The notes under the pieces are model-generated. The model was given only the letters and a program-made list of their open reading frames with translations. It searched no databases and was not told the DNA's origin. DNA of 64,000 nt from NCBI GenBank assembly GCA_903923905.1, contig CAIXZH010000024.1, positions 62,001-126,000 of the forward strand, given 5' to 3'. A program made the position numbers and the translations under genes. Origin of the DNA: an uncultured Bacteroidia bacterium (GTDB lineage: Bacteria; Bacteroidota; Bacteroidia; Bacteroidales; Prolixibacteraceae). Positions 1 to 63,585 of the stretch are shown in pieces; the first letter of the stretch is position 1; every line of letters begins with the position of its first letter.

Positions 1-2
1 CA

Positions 3-1049
3 GATCCACAAAACAAAAATCTGGCTGCTCACATTAAGCTTGTCCCTATTGATAAAAACGGAAATGGCCGGATTGATTATGCCGAAGCTATCTATTACAA
101 TCTCCAGGAGTTTTCACGCGGGGTATGGATCGGAAGATACCCCCAGCCATTATCCGGAAAAATTTACTCCGTTTCTTCAGTCAAGCCAAAAGGTGCAATC
201 CAACTCTCATTTTTAAATTGGGTACTGACTGATGGACAGCGATTTTTAAGCAGTAATGGTTATAATGATTTGGTTCTCAATGAAAGACAATCTCAGCTTG
301 ATAAAATTATTGAACCTCAGGTATATGCAAGTGCACCAACTGAAACCAATCCGTTTTTAATCATTAGGATTTTAATCATTCTGGCTATCGGAGTTATTGT
401 TGTAGCATTAGAATTCGTATTTCGTCGTGTCAGGACGCAGGAAAAAGTCGGAGCCAGGTTTACTTCGACTCTGTTAGAAGTGGTTAATGAGGAAAATATT
501 GCAATTCCACGGGGACTCTACTTTGATCAAACTCATACATGGGCATTTATGAAAAAAGATGGCCTTGTAAAAATCGGAATAGACGACTTTCTGCAACATG
601 TTACAGGTCCGCTTACCCGGGTTGTGATGAAAAATACGGGTGATAAAATTAAAAAAGGAGATCATCTGCTCACAATCATTCAAAATGGGAAACATTTGAG
701 AATCTATTCCCCGGTTACCGGAACAATAACCGCTCAAAACAAGGAATTATTCGATAATTCAAGTTTGCTTAATTCCGCTCCTTTTACAGATGGATGGATC
801 TATACGGTTGAGCCTACAAACTGGTTACTCGAAATCCAGTTCATGAATATGGCCGAAAAGTACTCAACCTGGTTAAAAGACGAATATTTAAGATTAAGGG
901 ATTTCTTTGAAGCGGCAGTCAGGTTTCATGTTCCTGCATTTATCATGGTTTTACAGGATGGGGGAGTGCTGAGAGATGGAATACTCGGAGAACTTGGCCC
1001 GGAAATCTGGGAAGATTTCCAGACAAAATTCATGGATGTCAAAAAATAG
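3..1049 (+). CDS. PstS-like / GcvH-like membrane fusion protein (5' end missing)
   Basis: The reading frame is open from base 3 of the window, so this is the C-terminal part of a larger protein; the TTG at 270 is internal. Three parts are visible. Up to about base 340 the sequence resembles the C-terminus of a PstS phosphate-binding protein (YPLSGKIY-like stretch, then LNWVLTDGQRFL and a GYNDL end). A hydrophobic segment follows at about 354-420, then basic RRVR. The rest resembles a glycine cleavage H protein: IPRGLYFDQTHTWAF, then IYSPVTGTI. The usual ESVKA lipoylation motif is replaced by QNGKHLR, with the lysine one residue out of register. Inferred topology is a periplasmic binding domain and a cytoplasmic lipoyl-like domain. 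A hairpin terminator follows, then the two-component genes. Function unknown. Confidence 0.75.
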   Translation, partial: DPQNKNLAAHIKLVPIDKNGNGRIDYAEAIYYNLQEFSRGVWIGRYPQPLSGKIYSVSSVKPKGAIQLSFLNWVLTDGQRFLSSNGYNDLVLNERQSQLDKIIEPQVYASAPTETNPFLIIRILIILAIGVIVVALEFVFRRVRTQEKVGARFTSTLLEVVNEENIAIPRGLYFDQTHTWAFMKKDGLVKIGIDDFLQHVTGPLTRVVMKNTGDKIKKGDHLLTIIQNGKHLRIYSPVTGTITAQNKELFDNSSLLNSAPFTDGWIYTVEPTNWLLEIQFMNMAEKYSTWLKDEYLRLRDFFEAAVRFHVPAFIMVLQDGGVLRDGILGELGPEIWEDFQTKFMDVKK

Positions 1050-1139
1050 TTGAAGACAATCCGTATAATCTGTAAAAGTGGGAATTACTCCTTTTTACAA
1101 TCAGATAAATGGACTTTTCTTTGGAATTTGTTAATTTTA

Positions 1140-1170
1140 AAAACTGTTGTCAAGGCAACAGTTTTTTTTT
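1140..1170 (+). terminator. Rho-independent terminator
   Basis: A perfect 10-bp stem (AAAACTGTTG at 1140-1149, CAACAGTTTT at 1156-1165) with a 6-base loop is followed by a run of T up to 1170. It lies between the PstS/GcvH-like gene and the kinase gene, so the two are probably separate transcripts, or only partly coupled. Confidence 0.8.
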
Positions 1171-1214
1171 GTAATTTGCAGGTGAATGGAAACACTTGCT
1201 AACAAGCTGAACAG

Positions 1215-2888
1215 ATGTTCTTCAGAAAAAAAAACACCACCAAAACAGGAAACGTAATACTTAATAATTACGTTAAATTCAGGTCTTCCATTTACGGCAG
1301 AGTCGTATTGATAATCACCTACCTGTCTGTATTTCTCTTCGTCTCATTCAGCCTTATTTTTAAGTCGGTGAATGAGCATTACCTGAATACCCTCATCCGC
1401 CAGAATGGCAACAATATCGGTTCAATCGTTGAGGGGGCATTATATCATTCGATGCTCGAGAATGATAAAAGTTCATTGCGAAACACACTCGACATTATCA
1501 ATACCTTGCCCGGAATAGATGAGGTGAACATGTATGACAGCGACGAAGACCTCGTCTATTCATCATTTGGATCAGATACGGATACGAGCAGCAAACACAG
1601 CGATCCGAATTGCAAAAGTTGCCATCCCAATATCAAATCGATGTTCTCCCAAAAAGAGAAAACATATAAAATAATCAATGTCAACAGCGATTGCGAGATG
1701 AATGTCAATGATAACGGAAGCAGGCATTTACTGATAAAATCGCCGATTTTAAATGAAAAATCCTGTTCTGTGAGTTCCTGTCACGCTCATAAGGAATCGG
1801 AGGAATTACTGGGATCATTAGTGATTAAAATCCCACTGGAGGCTCAGGATGCAGCTATTCAGAAATCCTCCATCGAGTTCTTCCTTCTGGCCATCTTTGC
1901 AACTGGAGTTTTCGTGCTGGTATTGCTGTTTTTTACCAGGAGAAAGATAAAAGATCCACTCAATGCATTAATAGAAGTGAGTATAGCTGTCGCCAACGGG
2001 GATAAAAGTACCCGTGTCGAAATCAAACCGAATCAGCTGGATGATATGAGAATGGTATCCCAGGCGTTTAATGATATGTTGGACAACCTCCATACCGCTT
2101 CAATTGAATTGGAAAACTGGTCACAACAGCTTGAATATAAGGTTCAGAAAAAATCAGAGGAACTTGGGGCTGCGCAACATGAATTGATGCATGTTGAAAG
2201 GCTCGCCTCACTGGGAAAATTATCCTCTTCAGTGGCTCATGAAATAAATAACCCGCTGTCCGGAATCCTGATTTATGCCAAGCTATTGCAAAAACAGGTC
2301 AGCAATCCTGAATTATATGCCTCCAAGCGGGAATCGATGCTCAAACACCTGAAACTAATTGAAAATGAAACGAAACGTTGCGGCGATATCGTCAAGGGTC
2401 TGCTGGATTTTTCAAGAAAGGACCAGAATGATTTTGAGCCAAAGCATTTGCATGAAATTCTGGAGGATACCTATGAACTGATGTCGCATCCAATCAAAAT
2501 TGCCAATATCAAGTTTTTAACTGAACTTACTGCCGCATCCGATTTAATTTATTGCAGTCCCAACCAGATCAAACAGGCTTGCATAGCCATGCTTGTGAAT
2601 GCTTCTGAGGCTGTGACCGAAAATGGTGAGATCACGATCAAAACTAAAAATCAGGATGAAGAAAACGTTACTTTTGAAATCATTGATAACGGGCAGGGAA
2701 TCGATCCAAGCGATATTGAGCATATTTTTGAACCTTTCTTTTCCACCAAGACAAATGTTAGTGGCATAGGGCTGGGACTCGCTATTGTTCATGGAATAAT
2801 TCAAAACCACAAAGGGAAGATTCAGGTGAAATCAGAACCCGGACATGGTACTACCTTTTCTGTAACTTTACCCTTGATTAAAACTTAA
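1215..2888 (+). CDS. Membrane histidine kinase with heme-motif periplasmic sensor
   Basis: Sensor kinase of 557 residues with membrane segments at about 29-49 and 220-240 and a periplasmic loop of about 170 residues between them. The loop contains CKSCH at 133-137, a classical c-type heme attachment motif, and CSVSSCH at 184-190, a CX4CH variant. Then come HAMP, a HisKA box (VAHEINNP, phosphoacceptor His) and a HATPase_c domain (NASEAV N box, DNGQGI, GIGLGLAIV). The heme reading is inference; heme-bearing sensor kinases are known in Geobacter and related bacteria. The response regulator gene starts 14 bases downstream, so the pair is an operon. Probable role is sensing periplasmic redox state or a gaseous ligand. 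The kinase call is secure and the ligand unknown. Confidence 0.92.
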   Translation: MFFRKKNTTKTGNVILNNYVKFRSSIYGRVVLIITYLSVFLFVSFSLIFKSVNEHYLNTLIRQNGNNIGSIVEGALYHSMLENDKSSLRNTLDIINTLPGIDEVNMYDSDEDLVYSSFGSDTDTSSKHSDPNCKSCHPNIKSMFSQKEKTYKIINVNSDCEMNVNDNGSRHLLIKSPILNEKSCSVSSCHAHKESEELLGSLVIKIPLEAQDAAIQKSSIEFFLLAIFATGVFVLVLLFFTRRKIKDPLNALIEVSIAVANGDKSTRVEIKPNQLDDMRMVSQAFNDMLDNLHTASIELENWSQQLEYKVQKKSEELGAAQHELMHVERLASLGKLSSSVAHEINNPLSGILIYAKLLQKQVSNPELYASKRESMLKHLKLIENETKRCGDIVKGLLDFSRKDQNDFEPKHLHEILEDTYELMSHPIKIANIKFLTELTAASDLIYCSPNQIKQACIAMLVNASEAVTENGEITIKTKNQDEENVTFEIIDNGQGIDPSDIEHIFEPFFSTKTNVSGIGLGLAIVHGIIQNHKGKIQVKSEPGHGTTFSVTLPLIKT

Positions 2889-2902
2889 TGAGAAAATAGT
2901 TC

Positions 2903-4246
2903 ATGGCGAAAAAAATTTCCATCTTAATCGTCGACGACGAAGAATCTGTTCGTGACTCGCTCTATAACTGGTTTATTGAAGACGGATACCGGGTTGAAAC
3001 GGCAGAAAATGCCCGAAAAGCGCTCACCCTTCTCGAATCTGACCAGTTTGACATTATCCTGGCAGATATTAAAATGCCCGGTATGGACGGGCTTGAGATG
3101 CTCCGAAGGATAAAATCGATTAAACCCGTATCCATCATCATCATAATGACCGCTTTTGCTACAGTCGACACTGCAGTTAAGGCCCTTAAAGACGGTGCCT
3201 ATGATTATGTGACCAAACCCTTTGATCCGGATGACCTCACACATCTGATCCGAAATGCCACCAAACAAATATCACTCGAAGACGAAAATGAAACCCTGAA
3301 GAAAAAAGTAATCACCCTTGAGAATGTTGAAGATCTGATTGGTGAGAGTGATGCCATGAAAAACCTGCTCAGGGAGGTTGAAAGTGTCGCTCAAACCAAT
3401 TCTTCGGTGATCATCAGTGGGGAAAGCGGAACAGGAAAAGAGTTGGTGGCTAGGGCAATTCATACTAATTCGCCGCGAAAATTTTTCCCCTTTGTCAGTG
3501 TTCATTGCGGCGCACTGACCGAGAGTCTGCTGGAAAGCGAATTATTTGGTCACGAAAAGGGGGCTTTTACCGGGGCCATGTACAATCGCAAGGGGCGGTT
3601 TGAGATGGCAGACAGCGGATCTATTTTCCTTGATGAAATTGCCACTATCTCAACTAAAATGCAGGTGGAGTTGTTACGCGTTTTGGAATCAAAAACCTTT
3701 ATGCGTGTCGGTGGGAACAAGGAGATCTATTCCGATTTCAGGGTGATTTGCGCAACCAACAAAGACCTTAAAAGTATGGTTGAACAAGGGACTTTCAGGG
3801 AAGATCTCTTCTATAGGCTGAACGTAGTAAATATTCACATCCCGCCATTGCGTGATCGTATTGCAGATATTCCTCTCCTGGTCGACTATTTCATCAAAAA
3901 ATATTGCCTGTCAATGAACAAACCACCTGCAGCTATTGATCCAACAGCATTGAAAAGGCTACAAGAGTTTAACTATCCCGGAAATATCCGTGAGCTTGAA
4001 AATATGATTGAACGAGCCATTGTTGTTGGCGACGGAAAACGGATCTCACTAAAAGATCTCCCGCTGGAAAAATCTATCGTAAATAGTTCAACTGAAAGTC
4101 TCGATGATTTTGAACGGGCCTTTATTCTGCAGATTCTTCATAAATACAGCTGGAATATTTCACGTACTGCAAAAGCGTTGAAGGTTGACAGGGTGACGTT
4201 GTACAATAAAATTAAGAAATACGATTTAAAACCCACAGATCAGTAA
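2903..4246 (+). CDS. Sigma-54-dependent response regulator (NtrC family)
   Basis: A 447-residue regulator with the three canonical domains. The receiver domain (about 5-120) has the DD pair near the N-terminus and phosphoacceptor Asp55 in ADIKMPG. The AAA+ domain has Walker A GESGTGKE, the sigma-54 contact loop GAFTGA and FLDEI. A Fis-type helix-turn-helix (ISRTAKALKVDRVTLYNKI) lies at the C-terminus. It should activate RpoN promoters when phosphorylated by the adjacent kinase. Its targets are not obvious; I did not identify a convincing GG-N10-GC -24/-12 promoter in the surrounding spacers by eye. Confidence 0.95.
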   Translation: MAKKISILIVDDEESVRDSLYNWFIEDGYRVETAENARKALTLLESDQFDIILADIKMPGMDGLEMLRRIKSIKPVSIIIIMTAFATVDTAVKALKDGAYDYVTKPFDPDDLTHLIRNATKQISLEDENETLKKKVITLENVEDLIGESDAMKNLLREVESVAQTNSSVIISGESGTGKELVARAIHTNSPRKFFPFVSVHCGALTESLLESELFGHEKGAFTGAMYNRKGRFEMADSGSIFLDEIATISTKMQVELLRVLESKTFMRVGGNKEIYSDFRVICATNKDLKSMVEQGTFREDLFYRLNVVNIHIPPLRDRIADIPLLVDYFIKKYCLSMNKPPAAIDPTALKRLQEFNYPGNIRELENMIERAIVVGDGKRISLKDLPLEKSIVNSSTESLDDFERAFILQILHKYSWNISRTAKALKVDRVTLYNKIKKYDLKPTDQ

Positions 4247-4335
4247 GATTTCAGTATAATACCACATTTGAGTGGTCCGGGTATAGATCAACTTGATTGT
4301 TTTTTTCCGTCTCCTTAAAAACAAACTATTCACCA

Positions 4336-4866
4336 ATGAGTCTGCCAACCATTACGTTACTCTCTTTTGGTTTTCCCCAGCAGGATTTTCTGGACCAAAT
4401 CGCCAGGGCAGTTCAATTGGAATTTGGTTATGCGGTGAATCTCAGAGAAGGACGGATTGATCTGGGCGAGTATTATGATCCGGCAAGAAACCAGTACAAT
4501 GGTAATAATCTTCTAAATCTTGTTGATTCACTACATGTTACAGATTCATTTAAAACTCTTGGAATATTTAATGTAGACCTTTTTATTCCTATCCTTACCT
4601 TCATTTTTGGCCAGGCATTCCTAAACGGGAACAGCGGAATTGCATCTTTTTACCGTCTGAATAATGAACGGTATGGCATGCCGGAAAACGATCTGTTATT
4701 CATTGAACGTGCAAAAAAAGAGGTCATCCATGAAATAGGTCACACTTTTGGCTTAATTCATTGCCAAAACCCCGTTTGTGTCATGAGATCAAGCACCTAT
4801 CTGGAAGATGTGGACCAAAAAAAACTGCACCTCTGCCACAATTGCAGGGAAAAGCTTGTTGGATAA
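4336..4866 (+). CDS. amzA: Archaemetzincin-type zinc metalloprotease
   Basis: Carries the family signature HEIGHTFGLIHC: zinc ligands at about His132, His136 and His142 with catalytic Glu133, followed by VMRSS (metzincin Met-turn) and a C-terminal LCHNC cysteine motif that binds a second zinc. The length of 176 residues is typical of M54 peptidases. I chose the ATG at 4336 rather than the TTG at 4297 because MSLPTITLLSFG matches the usual start of the family core. No signal peptide, so cytosolic. Physiological substrates of this family are poorly known. Confidence 0.88.
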   Translation: MSLPTITLLSFGFPQQDFLDQIARAVQLEFGYAVNLREGRIDLGEYYDPARNQYNGNNLLNLVDSLHVTDSFKTLGIFNVDLFIPILTFIFGQAFLNGNSGIASFYRLNNERYGMPENDLLFIERAKKEVIHEIGHTFGLIHCQNPVCVMRSSTYLEDVDQKKLHLCHNCREKLVG

Positions 4867-4938
4867 CTCATGGAACGCTAAAACAGAGATTAATAAAATT
4901 CTAAACATAAATAATTACTTTAGTCCAAAATTTAACTG

Positions 4939-5967
4939 ATGAAGCCGGGACGGATTAAATACAATATATTAAACATCCTGTTTCCCGTTTGTGCTTTCAT
5001 GCTAACCTGCTCATTTGTCCATCCGGATCAGGTACCATTCATTTACCGTCCCGTTTATTTCCCAATTTACCCGTATTCTACCTATCAGTCGACTAACTAT
5101 TCGCCAGATTTCAGTTTAAGTTCAGATTCGGTGGTCATACCACTTAAAAGGGCCGGCCGATTGTTCCTGATTGAAGCAAAAGTAGATGATCAGATTGGAA
5201 ATCTGGTCTTTGACACCGGTGCCAACGGACTGGTTCTCAATAGCACCTATTTCAGGAATTATCTTAAATCCGGCGAAGCTGTTTCTAACGGAATCACTGG
5301 TTCGGTTGGGGTTGTCGGGCAAATTTCAATCGGGAAGCTGGAATTTTCGGAGATAGCCTATAAAAACATCAAGGCAGATGTCACAGATCTGGGGCATATC
5401 GAAAACCGGCGGGGTTTTAAAATATTGGGATTGCTTGGATTTAGTATGATGAGAAACCTTGAAATTGTAATTGATGCAAGGAATAATGAGCTGGTTCTTA
5501 TACGAATAGATAAGGATGGCAAAAGGAAGAATAAAGCAAACTCTGAATTTAAGGCCAGCTATTTCCAGAAGTTCGAAACAAACAGCAATATTCTTTTTTT
5601 AAAAGGGAAAATAGCTGGTAAAAATCTTAATTTCTGCTTCGATACCGGTGCCGAAACAAATGCAATCAGCAGTGATTCAAATAAAAACATTCTGAATACA
5701 CTAACAATCACACGCCGCTCCACCCTCAAAGGAGCCGGATCAGCACGATCTGAGGTTTTGTTTGGACACATGAACGATTTTTCGATCGGCGAAAGACACA
5801 TCAGCGAAATGGAGACGATCGTTTCTAACCTTGATGCCTTAAGTGAGGCCTACAACACAAAGATTAACGGAATCCTGGGCTACAATTTTCTCGTACAGGG
5901 TACTATTTGTATTAATTTTGTAAAGAAACAGTTTGGTATTCGTTTTACTAAAAAAGAAGAAAAATGA
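4939..5967 (+). CDS. Secreted retropepsin-like aspartyl protease
   Basis: A 342-residue protein with an N-terminal hydrophobic export signal and two aspartyl protease active-site motifs, FDTGANG (Asp92) and FDTGAET (Asp235). The two halves therefore form a pepsin-like pseudo-dimer in one chain, as in bacterial retropepsin-like and PDZ-associated periplasmic proteases. No PDZ domain is visible. The stop codon overlaps the start of the next gene (ATGA at 5964-5967), which indicates translational coupling to the four-module glycogen-binding protein. A joint extracytoplasmic role is inferred; substrate unknown. Confidence 0.8.
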   Translation: MKPGRIKYNILNILFPVCAFMLTCSFVHPDQVPFIYRPVYFPIYPYSTYQSTNYSPDFSLSSDSVVIPLKRAGRLFLIEAKVDDQIGNLVFDTGANGLVLNSTYFRNYLKSGEAVSNGITGSVGVVGQISIGKLEFSEIAYKNIKADVTDLGHIENRRGFKILGLLGFSMMRNLEIVIDARNNELVLIRIDKDGKRKNKANSEFKASYFQKFETNSNILFLKGKIAGKNLNFCFDTGAETNAISSDSNKNILNTLTITRRSTLKGAGSARSEVLFGHMNDFSIGERHISEMETIVSNLDALSEAYNTKINGILGYNFLVQGTICINFVKKQFGIRFTKKEEK

Positions 5968-7409
5968 AGACAATCGTACGTTTTACCCTGCTGTTTATTG
6001 GACTTTTTTATATTACTTCCACACAGGCTCAATTCAGTCCGGATAAAATTTGCCGGATCGAAAACGGTCATCTTGTCTTTGCAATCAATTTGAAATGGAG
6101 TTTAAGGGATCAAAAGGAGCTTATGCAACTTTTTGATCTTGACAGTACCCTTATTGCTCAGGTTTTCAGCGGCAAATCCATTATTACAGGGGAATATGGA
6201 GGATGGAAAGTTAAAAAGGTAAAACCAAATATCGTTGAATTATCCAAGCCGGTTGATTCAAAGAATGATAAAAACATTAAAATCAATGATCTCTTTCTGG
6301 AAATTGATGAATGGAGGAATTTTGGAGGTAATACTGAGGACGTTTCAGTCGTTTACGGAGTGAATGATTTTAAACTTTCCTACGTTTTCACTTACAACAA
6401 AATCAAGGCACAATTTTATCTGCCCGCATTTAAAACGGCAGGTAAAATCTTTCTTTCAGGCAGTTTCAATGGTTGGAGCACTGCCTTGAATCCAATGAAA
6501 AGAGTAAAAGACAGCTGGATAACAGATATCAATCTTAAACCCGGGAAATACACCTACAAGTTCATTATTGACGGTAAATGGACTGAAGATCCCAACAACA
6601 ATCTCAGGGAAGACGATGGCGCAGACGGACATAATTCAGTCGTTTATTGTTGCAATCATCTGTTTAAACTCAATGGCTACAAGGGCGCCCGAAATGTGGT
6701 TGTAACCGGCAATTTCTGCAACTGGAATCCGGATGGAATAAGCATGCATAAAACCGACGATGGGTGGTCTGTGCCAGTTTATTTGCGCAACGGAACCTAT
6801 GCCTATAAATTTATCACAGATGAGCAATGGATAACTGACCCGGGTAATCCGATCGTACGAAAAGATGGAGACGGGAATCTCAATTCTCTAATTGGAATCG
6901 GAGAACCCTATTTGTTTAAACTTGACGGGTATTCCAAAGCCAGGGAAGTTGTTCTGACGGGAAGTTTTAACGGATGGAATCATGCAGAACTGGTAATGGA
7001 CAAAACTGAAAAGGGCTGGCAGCTACCCTACGTGATCGCACCGGGAAATTACGAATACAAATTCATTGTCGACGGAGATTGGATTACCGACCCGGCGAAT
7101 CCAATTACTACTCAATCAGGTGATCAAATAAATTCATTCATAGCCTTGAAAGCCAACCATCTTTTCGAGCTCAACAAATTTCAGAAAGCAAAGTCAGTAA
7201 TCGTATCCGGAAGCTTCAACGGCTGGAATACTCAAGGTTATAAAATGACCAGACAAGGAGAGAAATGGATTCTGCCTCTCTTCCTTGCTCCGGGGAAATA
7301 CACCTATAAATTCATCGTTGACGGAACATGGATTCTTGACCCGGACAATTCGCTTTATGAGCAAAACGAATACAACACCAACAATTCAGTACTTTGGATT
7401 GAACCCTGA
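5964..7409 (+). CDS. Secreted protein with four AMPK/CBM48-like glycogen-binding modules
   Basis: Signal peptide (about 1-22, ending TQAQ), then a region of about 120 residues that I do not recognise, then four tandem modules. Each has the pattern GSFNGW, a hydrophobic strand, YxYKFIxDGxW and a DP motif. The GSFNGW-type motifs begin at residues 166, 249, 333 and 416, a regular period of 83-84 residues; the second copy is altered to GNFCNW. This is the fold of AMPK beta-subunit glycogen-binding domains and CBM48. No catalytic domain is present, so the protein probably binds alpha-glucan or acts as a multivalent scaffold. It is translationally coupled to the upstream aspartyl protease. Confidence 0.85.
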   Translation: MKTIVRFTLLFIGLFYITSTQAQFSPDKICRIENGHLVFAINLKWSLRDQKELMQLFDLDSTLIAQVFSGKSIITGEYGGWKVKKVKPNIVELSKPVDSKNDKNIKINDLFLEIDEWRNFGGNTEDVSVVYGVNDFKLSYVFTYNKIKAQFYLPAFKTAGKIFLSGSFNGWSTALNPMKRVKDSWITDINLKPGKYTYKFIIDGKWTEDPNNNLREDDGADGHNSVVYCCNHLFKLNGYKGARNVVVTGNFCNWNPDGISMHKTDDGWSVPVYLRNGTYAYKFITDEQWITDPGNPIVRKDGDGNLNSLIGIGEPYLFKLDGYSKAREVVLTGSFNGWNHAELVMDKTEKGWQLPYVIAPGNYEYKFIVDGDWITDPANPITTQSGDQINSFIALKANHLFELNKFQKAKSVIVSGSFNGWNTQGYKMTRQGEKWILPLFLAPGKYTYKFIVDGTWILDPDNSLYEQNEYNTNNSVLWIEP

Positions 7410-7421
7410 ATTCAGGGTTCA
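7400..7421. repeat. 22-bp perfect palindrome over the stop codon
   Basis: The half-site TGAACCCTGAA is followed directly by its exact reverse complement, with no spacer. The palindrome covers the TGA of the glycogen-binding protein (7407-7409). No T run follows, so it is not a standard terminator. A smaller hairpin (TTCACT at 7439-7444, AGTGAA at 7448-7453) lies just downstream, about 150 bases before the LytS-type kinase gene. Confidence 0.7.
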
Positions 7422-7599
7422 GATTGAATAGTGATAGTTTCACTTTGAGTGAAGCGATCACTAATCGATCTACTTTCTTATAAATTCACCTGAAAACTTA
7501 CCGCAGAATAGGTCAACTCCACCGTTCAATAGTTCACCCATTATGGTTATAATTGTAATCACCATTTTTGGGGTATTAAATCACTGAAGATATCCGTTT

Positions 7600-10485
7600 A
7601 TGAAGAAAGTTCTCTTTCTCTGTTTTGCCCTGTTTGTTGGAAGTTATCTTAAAGCCGATGATCATACTCCAATAAATCCTGAAATAGGCAGAAAATATAC
7701 GGTAGAGACCATCTATCATCAGGATACCTCAAAAACCAACCCGCGCAGGGAATACGACAAAAGAACCTATGAATGGACCGCAACAAATTATGACCCTAAA
7801 GAAAACCGCTATACGGTAAGATTAAATGTCAGTTATTTAATGCATGTAGTTCAGGAAATTAACCAAAACGGAGAATGGCAGGAAAAGGAGGTCTTTGAGA
7901 CCGGCTATTTGACCTCTTACCGAAATCCCCTCGTTTTTATAAACCGATACTATATTCCGGTAACCTTTAAGCTATCAAAAGAGGGCAAAGCTTCCGAATT
8001 TGACTTTAGCGAATATGGGAAAACCAAAAATTCAGGAAGTCTCGATCCAGATCTGGGCGAATTGGACCAGAAGGATATCGAGTCTGAAATTGGCATTTTA
8101 TTTGAAGATACTAATTCAACATTGGACACCAAACAGACCATTAGCACCCGTTTTCATAACTTCTTCTCACCACTTCCTTACCGGGTGATCTGGCAAAATA
8201 TGTCCGGGGATTCCCATTTAACTGAAAGTGACAATAAGGAACACACTTACCGCAAATTAGTAGTTGATAAATCGTCTGGACTGATCCTTGAAAAGGTATT
8301 AAGCAATCTTCGGGATAGATCGGGGCAAAGAAATCTAACCTATTACCAGAAAATGATTCCCGAATTTTCGAAAAAAGGTGAAGTGAAGGAAAGAACTGAA
8401 AAGGGGACTTATGAGAAAAGCGAAGTACAAAATTCAAATACTGCACTCAGGATTACCAATCACGATCCGGTTAACAATCAAAAGTTTATCTATCTGACCT
8501 GGTTTGATCGGTTTTCCGGTGATTTTAAATCCGTTCAACTGGAAAGAGATGAGCACGGCATTTTCAATTTTCAGTCACATTTGGACCAATCCCAGGGGTG
8601 CTATATCAGTTTTAGTGCTGAATTGCCGAATTTTACCAACCCATTTAATCTGAATTTAAATCCCGGGGATGACCTGGAAGTTGAAATCAACAATTCATCC
8701 GACTCAGGCAAGACCACTTTCCGTGGAGTTGGGGCTGATGAAAACCGGGTATCCCGGCAGATTGGAAAATTAATAATGTCTGAAACAAAGGGAATGAAAG
8801 CCCGCCCCTTTCAACCTCTAAAAGCCAGTTTTGACAGTGCATGCAGGATACTGAATGAGTCTAAATTGACGATTTGTCCTGAAACCTATCTTGACCTATC
8901 CAACACCCTTTTATACCTAAGCGAAATCCTGAAAACACATAATGATACCACTTATACCGATAAGCTGAAAATCCCGGTTTGTAATACAATTGCCAAAAAT
9001 AATGCATATTATCAGCTGTTTCTGAAAAGTTATGTCGCTTCGTTTATGGAAAAGATAAGCCACTCCTCCACGAATCTGATTTCATCAGCAGATCTTTACG
9101 AGCGGGAATACAGTTTCGGGCAGGTGCTCTTCCCTGAACCCATTCTTTCCGAATATCTGTCCATGGTGGTTGAGAATGCGATCGAAAGGGGAAGATGGGA
9201 AAATGCCAAAATCCTCTATGAGCGTCATAAACTAGCTTATTCAAACAATCCCAGGTTTTTAAAAACCTCACGTATTTTTCAGCTTCAGACTCAGCTTTCT
9301 CCCGGATCTATATTCCCCCTGGATGTATTGACCGATAATCAAGGGAAAACCATTAAATTCAGGAATATTACAGATAAATTGGTAATTATCAGGATGCATC
9401 AGATTCTGACTGCCGGGAATCTGGCAAAAGAAATTGCCGATTTAAAGAATGCTTCTACTCATCAAAAGGAGATTAGCGAGGTTTGGTTTTTCACCGGCAA
9501 AAACAACCAAAATACAGATTTAAAAGCAGTAGCGGATTCATTACCCGATATTCACATTGTCTTTGACAGCATGGACACTCTTTTTAAGAACCATAATAGG
9601 CTGCGGACTATGTCTAACAGGACAGAATACGTATTGGGGAGAAAGGGGGTCATCCTTTTTAACCGGATTCCAGGTTCTGCTGAATTGCAAAATGCAGTTG
9701 CAGATCTTAGTAGGCCTCATTTCATAGGGACTCCTTCGGACCTTATCCTGAAAATAATTGCAATCGTTCTTCTGGTGATCCTAATCCTGACTGGGATCGG
9801 GTTTATGGTATACCGCCGCATTTCGGGACGAAAGCTTAAACTGGCAGAGATAAATCGCCGGATGCGGGAGCTTGAACTCACAGTGATCAGGACCCAGATG
9901 AATCCCCATTTTATGTACAACTGCCTGAATTCCATTCAAAACCTGGTGCTAAAAAACCGGAATGATGAGGCTCACCTTTATCTTTCCAGGTTTGCTTCAC
10001 TTGTAAGACAGGTATTGAATAACAGCAAAAAGGAGGAAATTGCATTGAGTAAAGAGCTTGATTCGGTGAAGGATTACATTGAATTGGAGCAACTAAGGTT
10101 CGGTTTTGAATATACTATTGAGCTTCAGAATGGAATCGATCCTAACGATATTTTTATCCCTCCGATGTTGCTTCAGCCTTTTGTCGAGAATGCTATCCTG
10201 CACGGACTTCTCCTTAAAAAGGACAACCGGATATTGAAAATCTTTGTTCAGACAGAGCAGGATAAAATTATACTGGTGATCGAAGACAACGGTGTGGGCC
10301 GCGAAGCTGCCGGTAAAATGGAACTCAAAGGTAACGGCCAAGGAATCCGGCTGTGCCAGGACCGTCTCCTGCTCCTTTCCGTGAAGACAGGAATTCAATA
10401 CGAATTAAAGATTGAGGATTTAACAGATGGAAATAATCAACCATCCGGCACCCGTGTTTCTATCGGATTTATTGAGGAAGAATAA
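7600..10485 (+). CDS. LytS/YehU-type histidine kinase with large exported sensor region
   Basis: A 961-residue kinase. After the signal peptide (1-19) come about 690 exported residues. The part at about 566-705 (SIFPLDVLTDNQGKTIKF onward) reads like a thioredoxin/TlpA fold but has no CXXC and no recognisable cis-proline loop. One membrane helix follows at about 711-741. The cytoplasmic part is a His_kinase (PF06580-type) domain with phosphoacceptor His770 in MNPHFMYN and an N box near 861 (ENAILHG), then DNGVGR. The LytTR regulator starts 33 bases downstream. The sensor shares its overall plan with the TlpA-like gene after the regulator, suggesting cell-envelope or thiol stress sensing (inference). 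Confidence 0.9.
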   Translation: MKKVLFLCFALFVGSYLKADDHTPINPEIGRKYTVETIYHQDTSKTNPRREYDKRTYEWTATNYDPKENRYTVRLNVSYLMHVVQEINQNGEWQEKEVFETGYLTSYRNPLVFINRYYIPVTFKLSKEGKASEFDFSEYGKTKNSGSLDPDLGELDQKDIESEIGILFEDTNSTLDTKQTISTRFHNFFSPLPYRVIWQNMSGDSHLTESDNKEHTYRKLVVDKSSGLILEKVLSNLRDRSGQRNLTYYQKMIPEFSKKGEVKERTEKGTYEKSEVQNSNTALRITNHDPVNNQKFIYLTWFDRFSGDFKSVQLERDEHGIFNFQSHLDQSQGCYISFSAELPNFTNPFNLNLNPGDDLEVEINNSSDSGKTTFRGVGADENRVSRQIGKLIMSETKGMKARPFQPLKASFDSACRILNESKLTICPETYLDLSNTLLYLSEILKTHNDTTYTDKLKIPVCNTIAKNNAYYQLFLKSYVASFMEKISHSSTNLISSADLYEREYSFGQVLFPEPILSEYLSMVVENAIERGRWENAKILYERHKLAYSNNPRFLKTSRIFQLQTQLSPGSIFPLDVLTDNQGKTIKFRNITDKLVIIRMHQILTAGNLAKEIADLKNASTHQKEISEVWFFTGKNNQNTDLKAVADSLPDIHIVFDSMDTLFKNHNRLRTMSNRTEYVLGRKGVILFNRIPGSAELQNAVADLSRPHFIGTPSDLILKIIAIVLLVILILTGIGFMVYRRISGRKLKLAEINRRMRELELTVIRTQMNPHFMYNCLNSIQNLVLKNRNDEAHLYLSRFASLVRQVLNNSKKEEIALSKELDSVKDYIELEQLRFGFEYTIELQNGIDPNDIFIPPMLLQPFVENAILHGLLLKKDNRILKIFVQTEQDKIILVIEDNGVGREAAGKMELKGNGQGIRLCQDRLLLLSVKTGIQYELKIEDLTDGNNQPSGTRVSIGFIEEE

Positions 10486-10518
10486 CATTTGTGAACAATA
10501 TGTTTAGAGCAAAAAAGA

Positions 10519-11262
10519 ATGGGACCAATCAAAGCAATCGTAATTGATGACGAACAAAACGGGCGAGAGAACCTATGCAGTACCTTGGAAAAATACTTTC
10601 CCGGGATTGTGTTGGTTGCCGAAGCCGATTCGGTGCTCTCGGGCATTGAGGCCATCCAGAAATATTCTCCCGATCTCCTCTTTCTCGATATTGAAATGCC
10701 TGGCGGGAACGGATTTAAAGTACTTGAATTCTTCACCGATCAACCATTTAATGTTATTTTCGTGACCGCTTACGACCATTATGCAATCCAGGCAATCCGG
10801 TTCTCTGCGCTCGATTATATCCTTAAACCCATAAATCTCCTTGATTTGCGCTCAGCAGTAAACAGGTACATGCAGCGGAAAGACAGGGATCAACGCGTAC
10901 TGGACCAATTTTTAAAAAATGCCGGGTCGGCCCTGCCAGAAAAAAAGATTGCCCTGGCAACAGGCGACAAAATTGAGTTTTGCAAAATCGGACAAATCAT
11001 TCGTTGCCAGAGCGACGGGAATTATACAAATTTTCATTTTGCAAATCGCACCACCCTCCTGGTTTCGAAAACGCTCAATGATTTCGAGGAGATCCTCGAC
11101 GGTTATGGCTTTATCAGAACTCATAAGGCCCACCTTGTCAACCTAATGTTTGTTCGTTCGTTTCATAAAAACGATGGCGGATACCTGAAAATGACCGATG
11201 ACACTTCCGTACCTGTTTCACGCCGTAAAAAGGAGGAGATCCTGAACCGGTTAAAATTCTGA
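10519..11262 (+). CDS. LytTR-family response regulator
   Basis: A 247-residue cognate of the preceding LytS-type kinase. The receiver domain has the acidic pair IDDEQ near the N-terminus, phosphoacceptor Asp in FLDIEMPGG and a conserved lysine in YILKPI. The C-terminal LytTR DNA-binding domain includes IIRCQSDGNYTNFHF and RTHKAHLVNL. Kinase and regulator are 33 bases apart on the same strand, so they are co-transcribed. LytTR proteins normally bind pairs of direct repeats of about 9 bp. Confidence 0.94.
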   Translation: MGPIKAIVIDDEQNGRENLCSTLEKYFPGIVLVAEADSVLSGIEAIQKYSPDLLFLDIEMPGGNGFKVLEFFTDQPFNVIFVTAYDHYAIQAIRFSALDYILKPINLLDLRSAVNRYMQRKDRDQRVLDQFLKNAGSALPEKKIALATGDKIEFCKIGQIIRCQSDGNYTNFHFANRTTLLVSKTLNDFEEILDGYGFIRTHKAHLVNLMFVRSFHKNDGGYLKMTDDTSVPVSRRKKEEILNRLKF

Positions 11263-11337
11263 TCCCTTTATTCTAACTGAACCTATTGGACTAAGAAAAG
11301 CTATAACTTATTGAAGAAGAGTATTTTTTTAATGCAA

Positions 11338-11367
11338 TTTGGAATTTCAAAATCCTTAGTACATTGA
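11338..11367 (+). promoter_or_regulatory. Possible Bacteroidota-type promoter for the TlpA-like gene
   Basis: TTTG at 11338-11341 is followed after 18 bases by TACATTGA, an imperfect match to the TAnnTTTG -7 box known in Bacteroidetes. The start codon is about 40 bases further on. Weak evidence based on two short motifs. Confidence 0.3.
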
Positions 11368-11403
11368 ATTTCGAAGATAATCACATCAATAAATTAACTC
11401 AAA

Positions 11404-12606
11404 ATGAAAAAATCAATCCTTCTTATCGTGTGCTTGATGATTATGACCAACGCCTTTTCTGCGCCGGGTCAATTTGTTTTAAACGGAAAAATCCAGGGTA
11501 TTGCCTCTGGAATGGCGATTTTATCCTATTCAGTTTTTAAGGTCGATCGATGGCATCAAGTAAAAGATTCTGCCCAAATTATTCAGGGAAATTTTCTGAT
11601 TAAGGGGATGATTGACGAACCTTTGAAAGCAGATATAAAAATTGGTGACCATGTAACCTCCTTTTATATCGAACCTGCTACAATGAATTTGTATTTTCCG
11701 ACTAAAGACCTAAGTGAATTTACCTTAAATGGATCCAAAACTCAGGACGAATCCGAATTGTATGTCCATAACACTATGGAATTAGACAAACTGGATAACC
11801 AACTCTGGAAACAGTACCCCAAAGTTAACTTGGATACTATCCCTGAAGACAATCCACTTCGTAAAAAATTCTTGGATAAAATAGAATCAATTGATAATCA
11901 AAGGGATTCTCTATGTGAACTTATAAATAATGCAAAGATTGATTTTATCAGGACAAATCAGAATTCCTTTCTTCCGGTTATTGGTGATGAAATAACTCGG
12001 TTATTATATCAAAGGGTGGATCCGATATCAGTTGGGCAAGCACGAAAACTCTTCAATAACTTGTCAGAAAAAGTCAGACATAGCACCTATGGTATTCGGA
12101 CCAATAATAGAATCAAAGTAAAAGAAAATGTAGTTGTTGGAAGGCTTGCACCTGAATTCAGTACACCTGACAAAAATGGCAAAACAGTGAAATTGTCCGG
12201 ATTTCGGGGAAGAAGTTATGTAATGCTGGACTTTTGGGCAAGTTGGTGCTCCCCATGCTTGAAAGGCGTTCCCCATTTAAAGCAACTATTTGCCAGGTAT
12301 CATGATAAAGGGTTAGAGGTCATATGTGTTTCAGTGGACTACAAAAAAGACAAATGGCTGTCTGCGATTGATAAATACGATCTCTCCTCATGGCATCATG
12401 TTTTGAGTGTACAGGATCTGGACAAATCATTTCAATACATTGAAAATAAGGATGATATCAGAGAAAAATATCCTTTAGGCAATGGAGTTCCACAATATAT
12501 TTTAATTGACAAAACCGGGAAAATAATCGGGAAATGGGATTCCTATTCAGAACAAAATGAACAAGAACAGGATAAAATGCTGGCAGAAATTTTCGGCGAA
12601 AAATAA
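11404..12606 (+). CDS. TlpA-family thiol-disulfide oxidoreductase with DUF4369-like N-terminus
   Basis: A 400-residue exported protein with a signal peptide (about 1-19). The N-terminal beta-rich part (FVLNGKIQGIASGMAILSY) matches the DUF4369-type domain common in Bacteroidetes. After a helical linker, the C-terminal thioredoxin domain (about 245-400) has the active-site motif WCSPC with Cys282 and Cys285 and a VPQYILID cis-proline loop. Expected role is reduction of periplasmic disulfides or cytochrome c maturation. It lies 141 bases after the LytTR regulator and may be under its control. The GH42 gene ends convergently 8 bases beyond. Confidence 0.9.
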   Translation: MKKSILLIVCLMIMTNAFSAPGQFVLNGKIQGIASGMAILSYSVFKVDRWHQVKDSAQIIQGNFLIKGMIDEPLKADIKIGDHVTSFYIEPATMNLYFPTKDLSEFTLNGSKTQDESELYVHNTMELDKLDNQLWKQYPKVNLDTIPEDNPLRKKFLDKIESIDNQRDSLCELINNAKIDFIRTNQNSFLPVIGDEITRLLYQRVDPISVGQARKLFNNLSEKVRHSTYGIRTNNRIKVKENVVVGRLAPEFSTPDKNGKTVKLSGFRGRSYVMLDFWASWCSPCLKGVPHLKQLFARYHDKGLEVICVSVDYKKDKWLSAIDKYDLSSWHHVLSVQDLDKSFQYIENKDDIREKYPLGNGVPQYILIDKTGKIIGKWDSYSEQNEQEQDKMLAEIFGEK

Positions 12607-61944: not shown

Positions 61945-63585
61945 TCAGAAATAGCCAAACTTTTCGACATCGCCGTACTTCAATGCCAGTTCCGCCCGTT
62001 TAATTGTAAGCTGTTCGCTGCCTAAAGCATGAAAAGTTATCCGATTATCGCCTCGTTTTAAACAGTATACCGGAACGATATATGCATAGACGATTTCGTT
62101 TTTCTTCAGGTTTTGCGCCCTTTGGAACAGGTTTACATATTCAGGTTTTTGAATATTTATCTCTTGATTATTCACAAAAAGTTCAAATTTTCCAGGATGG
62201 TCTGAACGGAGAAAAAGAATTGCCTCTTCAGGTACATCCTTCTTCGGATTATCGCCCACAAAAATGGTTACTGCAGAAATTTTTTCCAATGAAACTTTCA
62301 GTGGAAGTGGTGTTTCGGGCCGGTATCCGTAGGCTGCTGCCCCCCCATCTTCGACACAATAGATTTTATTCCGTTTTTGTAAAGTTTCCAATGAGCCCAT
62401 TTCATTTAAAAGTCCGGGCATGATCACATCACAGACATATCCGCCATCCTGCAAATGCAACTTGCTGTTATATTTTGACTTATACGCGTCAAAAAAATAA
62501 TTGAACAGATAAATGCCATCGCCACCCTGGGCCAGGATATGGGAAGCCATTCCACGAAACATCCCATGAGAATAGAATTGCCGGTCATCATATCCGCCAT
62601 CATCAATTGAAGCGTAGACAGGGATGGATAGATTGCCCAGTCCAGCTTTAAATCCGGCAACCGGAATGGCCGGATTTCCTTTCCAATGGACCCCTATCGA
62701 GATAAAGTCAAGTAATCCAAGCCGATCCCACTCTTTCACATCCAATCCTTTTTTCAGACAAAAATCGAGGTCAACCGGTACACGGGCAGACAAAAGAATT
62801 TTCTTACCGCGCCGGGCAGATAACTCATCAATTTTTGTTTTGACCGCCCTGACAAGCTCTGTGATCAGATGTGCATTCTTTTCTCCTTCATCACTTTTAA
62901 AATAAACGATAAACCGCATAAAATCAAGATCATATCCATCCAATAGTTTTCCGTATTTATCCAGCTGTTCAGTGATCATATTCAATTTTTGCTCCCTGAC
63001 TTCCTTAAATGCATAGTTTAAGGCTCCTTTGCTTTTCCATCCAATGTCTTCATTGATCCAGTATTGAGGATGAGCTCTCCAGAAATCGGTATATTCAACC
63101 GGACAATGGGAGGTGGTATCGTTAAAATGAAGGTCGTTCATCCTGTAGGTGATAAATGATTCCATCTTTTTTTCCTTTGCCCTTTTAAGACATGCATCAA
63201 TAATATCTGTCCCCTCCTTCTCCAGGTTCAGGTGGTTCCGGAAGTAGCTGACCATGTATTTATAGTTTGCCGTATCTTTTCCGCAATCCAATGTACCGTT
63301 GCGGTCATCGCCGAATACCCGGCCGTATTTTGACCGGTAATAGGGATAATCGCTTCCGCTGCAGATCATAAAGGTGGTTACCTGCGTGTTCGCGTAATTG
63401 TCAACATAGGCATTGACATCCGCCAATGACAATGGTCGCTGATTAAACAGGAAATTGCCCAGGACAATGGTGCCGTCACAGTTGTGAATCAGGCGGTGGC
63501 TGAGCTGTTGTTCTTTCGGACTACCGAATGAAAGACTTCCCAAAAGTAAAAAGAGACCCCATAAACTCGTCATTCTGATTTTCAT
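61945..63585 (-). CDS. Secreted GHL10-like TIM-barrel protein
   Basis: A 546-residue protein with a signal peptide (about 1-22). The barrel-like region includes SFITYRMNDLHFNDT, DGYDLDFMRFIVYF, KKILLSARVPVDLDFC and GDGIYLFNYFFDAYK, resembling glycosyl hydrolase-like 10 family proteins of unclear activity. A C-terminal beta domain (about 400-546) follows. Probable role in glycan hydrolysis; catalytic residues not assigned. Confidence 0.7.
   Translation of the reverse strand: MKIRMTSLWGLFLLLGSLSFGSPKEQQLSHRLIHNCDGTIVLGNFLFNQRPLSLADVNAYVDNYANTQVTTFMICSGSDYPYYRSKYGRVFGDDRNGTLDCGKDTANYKYMVSYFRNHLNLEKEGTDIIDACLKRAKEKKMESFITYRMNDLHFNDTTSHCPVEYTDFWRAHPQYWINEDIGWKSKGALNYAFKEVREQKLNMITEQLDKYGKLLDGYDLDFMRFIVYFKSDEGEKNAHLITELVRAVKTKIDELSARRGKKILLSARVPVDLDFCLKKGLDVKEWDRLGLLDFISIGVHWKGNPAIPVAGFKAGLGNLSIPVYASIDDGGYDDRQFYSHGMFRGMASHILAQGGDGIYLFNYFFDAYKSKYNSKLHLQDGGYVCDVIMPGLLNEMGSLETLQKRNKIYCVEDGGAAAYGYRPETPLPLKVSLEKISAVTIFVGDNPKKDVPEEAILFLRSDHPGKFELFVNNQEINIQKPEYVNLFQRAQNLKKNEIVYAYIVPVYCLKRGDNRITFHALGSEQLTIKRAELALKYGDVEKFGYF

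Follow-up and report, generated by a model that had tools for sequence, protein, structure and literature searches.

We analysed a window of 64,000 nucleotides (positions 62,001 to 126,000 of contig CAIXZH010000024.1, assembly GCA_903923905.1) from an uncultured Bacteroidia bacterium of the Prolixibacteraceae. At its left end lie, on the forward strand, a gene for a membrane protein joining a PstS-like domain to an H-protein-like domain (FUS, below the fusion), a histidine kinase gene with two heme-c motifs, a gene for an NtrC-type regulator and an archaemetzincin gene (Table 1). The window opens inside the first of these: the frame at its edge encodes the C-terminal 348 aa (residues 218-565). 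The full protein has 565 aa; its gene starts at G000:C24:61352 (G000 being the window genome), 649 bases before the first window base, and the first 217 residues lie outside. The original prediction had read the first three genes as possibly a linked redox or electron-transfer signalling unit, with the fusion as carrier or ligand receptor. The fusion of the two parts is real, the partner regulator has the domains expected of it, and the two heme motifs of the kinase were found as well, in the refined form of one CXXCH and one CX4CH rather than two CXXCH. The module had also been expected to run on past the left edge, which holds for the fusion gene and its promoter only; no further leftward gene could be shown to belong, the next one being a glyoxalase-family gene on the other strand that is a neighbour in 3 of 21 loci, all of the window's genus.

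Table 1. Features at the left end of the window (positions in the window; residues in the encoded protein)
Feature	Positions	Strand	Remarks
FUS, PstS-like/H-protein-like transmembrane fusion, C-terminal part	3..1049	+	whole gene G000:C24:61352-63049
EF-hand-like loop in PstS-like domain of FUS	51..86	+	residues 234-245
Helix of FUS, taken as single transmembrane helix	351..440	+	residues 334-363; hydrophobic by reading
H-protein-like domain of FUS	504..866	+	residues 385-505; glycine at lipoyl position
C-terminal tail of FUS	867..1046	+	residues 506-565; common to second H-like protein of relatives
Terminator-like hairpin with T run, between FUS and kinase	1140..1170	+	
Sensor histidine kinase	1215..2888	+	periplasmic Cache-type domain, two heme-c motifs, HAMP, HisKA, HATPase_c
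First heme motif, CXXCH	1611..1625	+	kinase residues 133-137
Second heme motif, CX4CH	1764..1784	+	kinase residues 184-190
NtrC-type response regulator	2903..4246	+	receiver, sigma-54 AAA+ domain with GAFTGA, Fis-type HTH
Archaemetzincin (peptidase M54)	4336..4866	+	open reading frame opens at TTG 4297; ATG 4336 backed by relatives

The conserved locus in relatives comprises seven genes, encoding the fusion, an HmcB-like ferredoxin, an HmcC/NrfD-like protein, a second H-like protein, the two-heme kinase, the sigma-54 regulator and the archaemetzincin. We detected a full-length fusion in 30 of 101 related genomes and, at E 1e-40, in a single one of 395 genomes of the phylum, that of the window. 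Named genomes were scanned as well; the best 80 of the 225 relatives returned were kept, and all 80 have Bacteroidota titles. Gene order was read in 81 loci (the 80 named ones and the window), all picked for holding the fusion, and 21 of them were set aside because a nearby contig end left too little flank. In 58 of the 60 assessable loci the kinase and the regulator follow the fusion, bearing out in Bacteroidota both the proposed gene order and the proposed linkage. The first six gene types were all present in 51 of the 60, with the archaemetzincin called in 49, and the HmcB/HmcC-like genes inside the unit give substance to the electron-transfer link that had been suggested. The archaemetzincin is part of the same unit as the fusion, the kinase and the regulator.

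Seven of the 60 loci, the window included, hold the fusion, kinase and regulator and lack the HmcB-like, HmcC-like and second H-like genes (below, the trio), and two more are incomplete. The archaemetzincin follows in all seven trio-less loci, in the window just past the stretch first read. At E 1e-15 no HmcC relative turned up in the window genome; a genome-wide search for HmcC in ten genomes found none in G000, G025, G065 and G099 and a second-locus copy in G026, and for the named trio-less genomes absence of the trio refers to the locus only. On a tree of the fusion, made by a quick method from 67 rows including 10 trio-less fusions, the trio-less state needs at least six changes, and well-supported branches alone force six. 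These changes are explained most simply by loss, with the fusion and the sensor pair apparently staying in place.

In other classes of the phylum the H-like half was matched alone, in 15 of the 395 genomes. All seven genes are present in 11 of these 15 loci, with a first gene of 216-292 aa as called, which encodes an N-terminal hydrophobic stretch and the H-like part and no PstS part; most simply, the PstS-derived domain would thus be a later addition in Bacteroidales. It may also be that the domain was lost secondarily, because in G099, which belongs to the window's order, the kinase, regulator and protease genes follow a short first gene. Of the remaining loci, L173 is cut by a contig end, L177 has no called HmcB or M54 gene, L183 is partly called, and L180 (G343) has two H-like genes of this family without HmcBC or a kinase nearby. 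The second H-like gene of the other classes matches the Bacteroidales profile weakly (35-57 bits). Its product carries in L172, L174, L175, L178, L181, L184 and others an N-terminal CxWxxAGxxxYKLCxxxxxCxxC where the Bacteroidales protein has its membrane helix; this motif is missing in L176 and L182.

The hairpin of Table 1 is kept in 7/7 aligned loci of the genus, and in the other six it stands between the second H-like gene and the kinase; because they lie behind it, kinase and regulator are probably transcribed separately. Rfam gave no match in window positions 1-12000. The regulator carries GAFTGA in 75 of 76 sequences (some of them from one contig counted twice), and sigma-54 promoters, which the original prediction had suggested looking for, were found before the fusion gene. 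The eight aligned fusion upstreams of the genus share an invariant TGGCA element and two palindromes, TGTTGA-N5-TCAACA, kept in most. In the window genome the sites lie left of the window, at C24:61124 and C24:61304. We scanned 87 non-redundant fusion upstreams, reaching up to 120 bases into the open reading frame because called starts are often too early. A -24/-12 pattern was present in 72, reading TTGA in 70 of them. Counted from the -24 element, a distal palindrome (178-186 bases before it) was found in 67/72, a proximal one (88-97 bases) in 65/72 and both in 64/72, against 0/72 for a control offset window. In shuffles by two-base blocks (n=87), for which each sequence was 60 bases shorter than in the actual -24/-12 scan, 1.4 -24/-12 patterns were expected and 71 seen, and 0.3 exact palindromes were expected and 45 seen. 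Two of the upstreams without the pattern, L037 and L043, read TTGG where the others have TTGA. A -24/-12 scan demanding GC at -12 was negative in a set of 178 fusion-labelled upstreams with second H-like genes mixed in. Upstream of the short H-like first gene (14 sequences, 13 from other classes and G099), a similar palindrome scored above 95% of 60 shuffles in 11/14.

We infer from this co-conservation that the regulator binds the palindromes; regulator and probable sites appear to have been kept together, and the fusion operon appears to be the recognisable target. G000 contains six exact palindromes, and the one before the fusion gene is alone in having TGGCA..TTGA at the customary spacing; two others (L243, L245) have a looser TGG element downstream and were not taken as promoters. 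A scan of G000 for TGGCA-N6-TTGCW gave 27 sites against 6 in the reversed control, 23 of the 27 inside open reading frames of at least 100 aa. Across the 101 genomes, palindrome plus TGGCA matched 96 times against 21 in the reversed control, which was not composition-matched; 27 of the 30 matches that were annotated lie inside open reading frames and one is a fusion promoter with the -24/-12 pattern, and by position 6 of the 96 fall at fusion promoters; relatives may have further targets among the other matches. One of the 27 G000 sites, before a radical-SAM gene, was dropped, 12 of 13 homologues having no such site and L224 a looser one elsewhere.

The N-terminal helix of the fusion reads like a signal peptide, and a PstS-like domain follows at about residues 34-319. 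This half is weak by sequence (TIGR02136 17 bits, cut-off 207; no PBP family matched in a Pfam search of FUS) and clear by fold and alignment: Foldseek of the FUS model (pLDDT 79.7, pTM 0.53) gave phosphate-binding protein with a best E of 1e-14 and an intact PBP fold. For comparison we aligned it with the genome's own PstS-type protein, encoded at G000:C36, where a PBP_like_2 gene is followed by two BPD_transp_1 permease genes, a row that we read as pstS-pstC-pstA. The EF-hand-like loop is identical at residues 234, 238, 242 and 245 in 59/59 fusions and at 236 in 58/59. It also occurs in the PstS-type protein of the genome, so inheritance is probable. Two arginines and the loop glycines of that protein we take to be the anion site. 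At the two aligned positions arginine occurs in 1/59 and 0/59 fusions, and the glycines of both loops are replaced in FUS. The H-like half is clear by both sequence (GCV_H 82 bits, cut-off 22) and fold (Foldseek TM-score 0.94 by target length). Aligned to the GcvH of the same genome, 59/59 fusions have glycine at the lipoyl position; lysine is invariant one residue past it (59/59) and occurs one residue before it in 31/59. Among the sequences listed, the H-like proteins from other classes do not keep a lysine at the lipoyl position. Basic residues after the membrane helix suggest that this half is cytosolic. With the anion-site residues replaced and glycine at the lipoyl position, the PstS-derived domain has most likely lost its phosphate pocket, and in all likelihood the fusion neither receives phosphate nor carries a lipoyl group; it may still be a receptor for another ligand. 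On sequence grounds, it looks like two inactive folds, deprived of their active residues and joined across the membrane. One fusion, at L187 3546-5152, looks frame-broken or truncated.

The pair of HmcB-like and HmcC-like proteins scores below the NCBI cut-offs in the relative examined, L037 (HmcB model 334 bits, cut-off 420; HmcC model 397 bits, cut-off 550). The HmcB-like protein is an exported ferredoxin; sixteen cysteines are invariant and a twin arginine is present in 11/11 of these proteins. A plasmid search with the HmcC-like protein returned 15 records at 27-30% identity, two of them annotated hybB. There is no large multiheme cytochrome among the seven recurrent genes. Four-CXXCH proteins are encoded inside or beside the operon at L171 4527-5057 and L176 10571-11110, and either may be an electron partner of the pair. 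The archaemetzincin has the HEXXHXXGXXHC zinc site and C-terminal cysteines (alignment of 16); the window gene matches Pfam M54, and NF033823 is above its cut-off for the protein of L037.

Both heme motifs lie within the first 260 residues in 82 of 83 kinases, L152 having no second motif. The model of the sensor domain (pLDDT 77) resembles Cache domains such as that of WalK, and in a profile comparison the domain shows a weak likeness to 3b42, a heme sensor of Geobacter (E 0.003). PF21563 was matched by 21 of 64 kinase sensor domains at E 0.1 or better, and PF11845 is not among the four families matched by the sensor domain of the window kinase at E 0.1. The window genome encodes one RpoN and a heme-c assembly protein of family PF01578, whose open frame spans 1031 aa and which is presumably CcsBA-like, serving heme-c attachment. 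Both were found in 9/9 genomes tested, including three in which no full-length fusion was found; they are needed for the module proposed below, though not specific to it. Two tandem copies of the heme kinase stand in the row in L044, L118, L150, L153 and L155 (L044 and L155 apparently being the same contig), and at L052 12223-15104 kinase and regulator look frame-broken or truncated.

We consider it probable, though far from certain, that in Bacteroidota this locus encodes a module that senses redox state or a gas, regulates itself and controls a membrane electron-transfer assembly. A change in heme state, by redox or by a bound gas, would lead the kinase to phosphorylate the regulator, which would then bind the two palindromes and start sigma-54 transcription of the fusion operon. 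The products would come together in one membrane assembly: its HmcBC-like subunits would carry electrons between menaquinol and the periplasm, and its H-fold proteins, on the cytosolic face, would serve as docking or regulatory subunits rather than lipoyl carriers. In Bacteroidales the first H-like subunit would have acquired a periplasmic PstS-derived domain without a phosphate pocket, and in the window genome the switch may control the fusion alone, as the sole recognisable output left. A bolder version, which we regard as quite doubtful, has the HmcBC-like pair feeding menaquinol electrons to the two hemes of the kinase; a membrane conduit of its own would thus let the kinase read out the quinone pool. 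H-fold proteins without lipoylation would act as adaptors in the cytosol, and the fusion would bring a PstS domain, put to new use, into the periplasm.

Several results weigh against the proposed module. The -24/-12 pattern is missing from 15 of the 87 fusion upstreams, the trio-less loci L050 and L053 among them, and was found in only 5 of the 14 short-first-gene upstreams (0.14 expected). Exact palindromes are not enriched genome-wide in G000 (6 against 4 in the reversed control). The archaemetzincin has no explanation beyond its co-conservation. Because trio-less loci exist, the fusion needs no HmcBC-like partners in cis, and its role as a simple subunit of an HmcBC-like complex is weakened; since the trio is repeatedly absent while the fusion is retained, the fusion may act alone or with other partners.

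Among the rival explanations, the kinase could be a nitric oxide sensor, with the operon answering nitrosative stress rather than the redox state of quinones. We judge this unlikely on balance, yet worth keeping in view. One-heme Cache domains fused to signalling modules behave as nitric oxide sensors according to PMC12889525, and the weak relationship of the kinase domain to 3b42 and PF21563 is in keeping with such a role. Two heme motifs instead of one would rather suit electron exchange, and the ferredoxin/NrfD-type pair that stands in most assessable loci likewise points to redox chemistry.

The fusion could also be an accessory sensor, whose PstS-derived domain binds a ligand other than phosphate and signals directly to the kinase; this seems to us rather improbable. 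The repeated absence of the trio keeps it alive, the fusion having stayed with kinase, regulator and protease through those changes. The PstS-like part, with its PBP fold intact in the model, also diverges faster than the H-like part (median identity to the window fusion 42% and 63%). The promoter, however, drives the fusion itself, which fits an output at least equally well. In other classes the short first gene encodes no periplasmic domain of this kind, and the PstS anion-site residues are lost.

It is very improbable that the fusion is a lipoyl- or substrate-carrying H-protein serving a redox enzyme: the H-protein fold and the lysines flanking the lipoyl position would suit a carrier, but the position itself is glycine in 59/59 fusions, and the H-like proteins listed from other classes keep no lysine there either. 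An ordinary phosphate transporter subunit beside unrelated signalling genes is hardly credible at all, for despite its homology to PstS the fusion is without the residues of the anion site and is conserved together with the signalling genes, the pstS-pstC-pstA-like row lies elsewhere in the genome, and the genes downstream of the fusion in the window (for kinase, regulator, M54 and others) gave no transporter match, an ATPase gene not having been sought.

Compared with known systems, the proposed electron-transfer assembly is most like the Hmc/Nhc-type NrfD complexes of sulfate reducers (HmcBC, NhcBC) and HybAB of hydrogenase 2 in pairing a 16-cysteine ferredoxin with an NrfD-like subunit. It differs in the sub-threshold scores of the pair, in the apparent lack of a large multiheme HmcA or NhcA in the conserved set, and in the two H-fold proteins, cognate heme kinase and sigma-54 regulator of the row; in the window genome, moreover, no HmcC relative was found. 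The fusion resembles PstS of the Bacteroidota type in fold and EF-hand-like loop, and departs from it in the replaced arginines and glycines of the presumed anion site, in its membrane anchor and in its junction to an H-protein fold. It shares that fold with GcvH and GcvH-related proteins (NF045810, LbpA), and differs from GcvH in the missing lipoyl lysine, the membrane anchor and the extra C-terminal tail; NF045810 gives 32 bits against a cut-off of 150, and LbpA is set beside the fusion by name only. The kinase is like the sCache_heme/Tll0287-like sensors, including GSU0582 and GSU0935 of Geobacter, in its Cache-type sensor, covalent heme motif and kinase output, with two motifs (CXXCH and CX4CH) instead of the single heme of the family described in PMC12889525 as a clear difference. 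The NrfCD pair Mros1572/Mros1571 of Melioribacter roseus is given as a quinol:electron acceptor reductase in PMC3534657, and it is placed beside the HmcBC-like pair by description, not by sequence. The NrfD review PMC8076601 mentions GcvH or glycine cleavage nowhere in its main text. No description of this gene set was found in the open-licence full-text literature, which does not prove its absence from print, and the seven-gene system of several Bacteroidota classes is apparently undescribed so far.

The system has a readable promoter code, with sensor, regulator, probable sites and output all identified. It offers a clear case of H-protein and PstS folds that seem to have lost their active residues and become joined across a membrane, and a two-heme variant of the Cache sensor. 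It is also a natural experiment, with at least six changes in the presence of the trio and with fusion and sensor pair kept throughout.

Further genes of the window follow the archaemetzincin. A retropepsin-like aspartyl protease is encoded at 4939-5967, and a protein with four glycogen-binding (AMPK1_CBM) matches at 5964-7409. Positions 7600-11262 hold a LytS-type histidine kinase with a long N-terminal region and then a LytTR response regulator.

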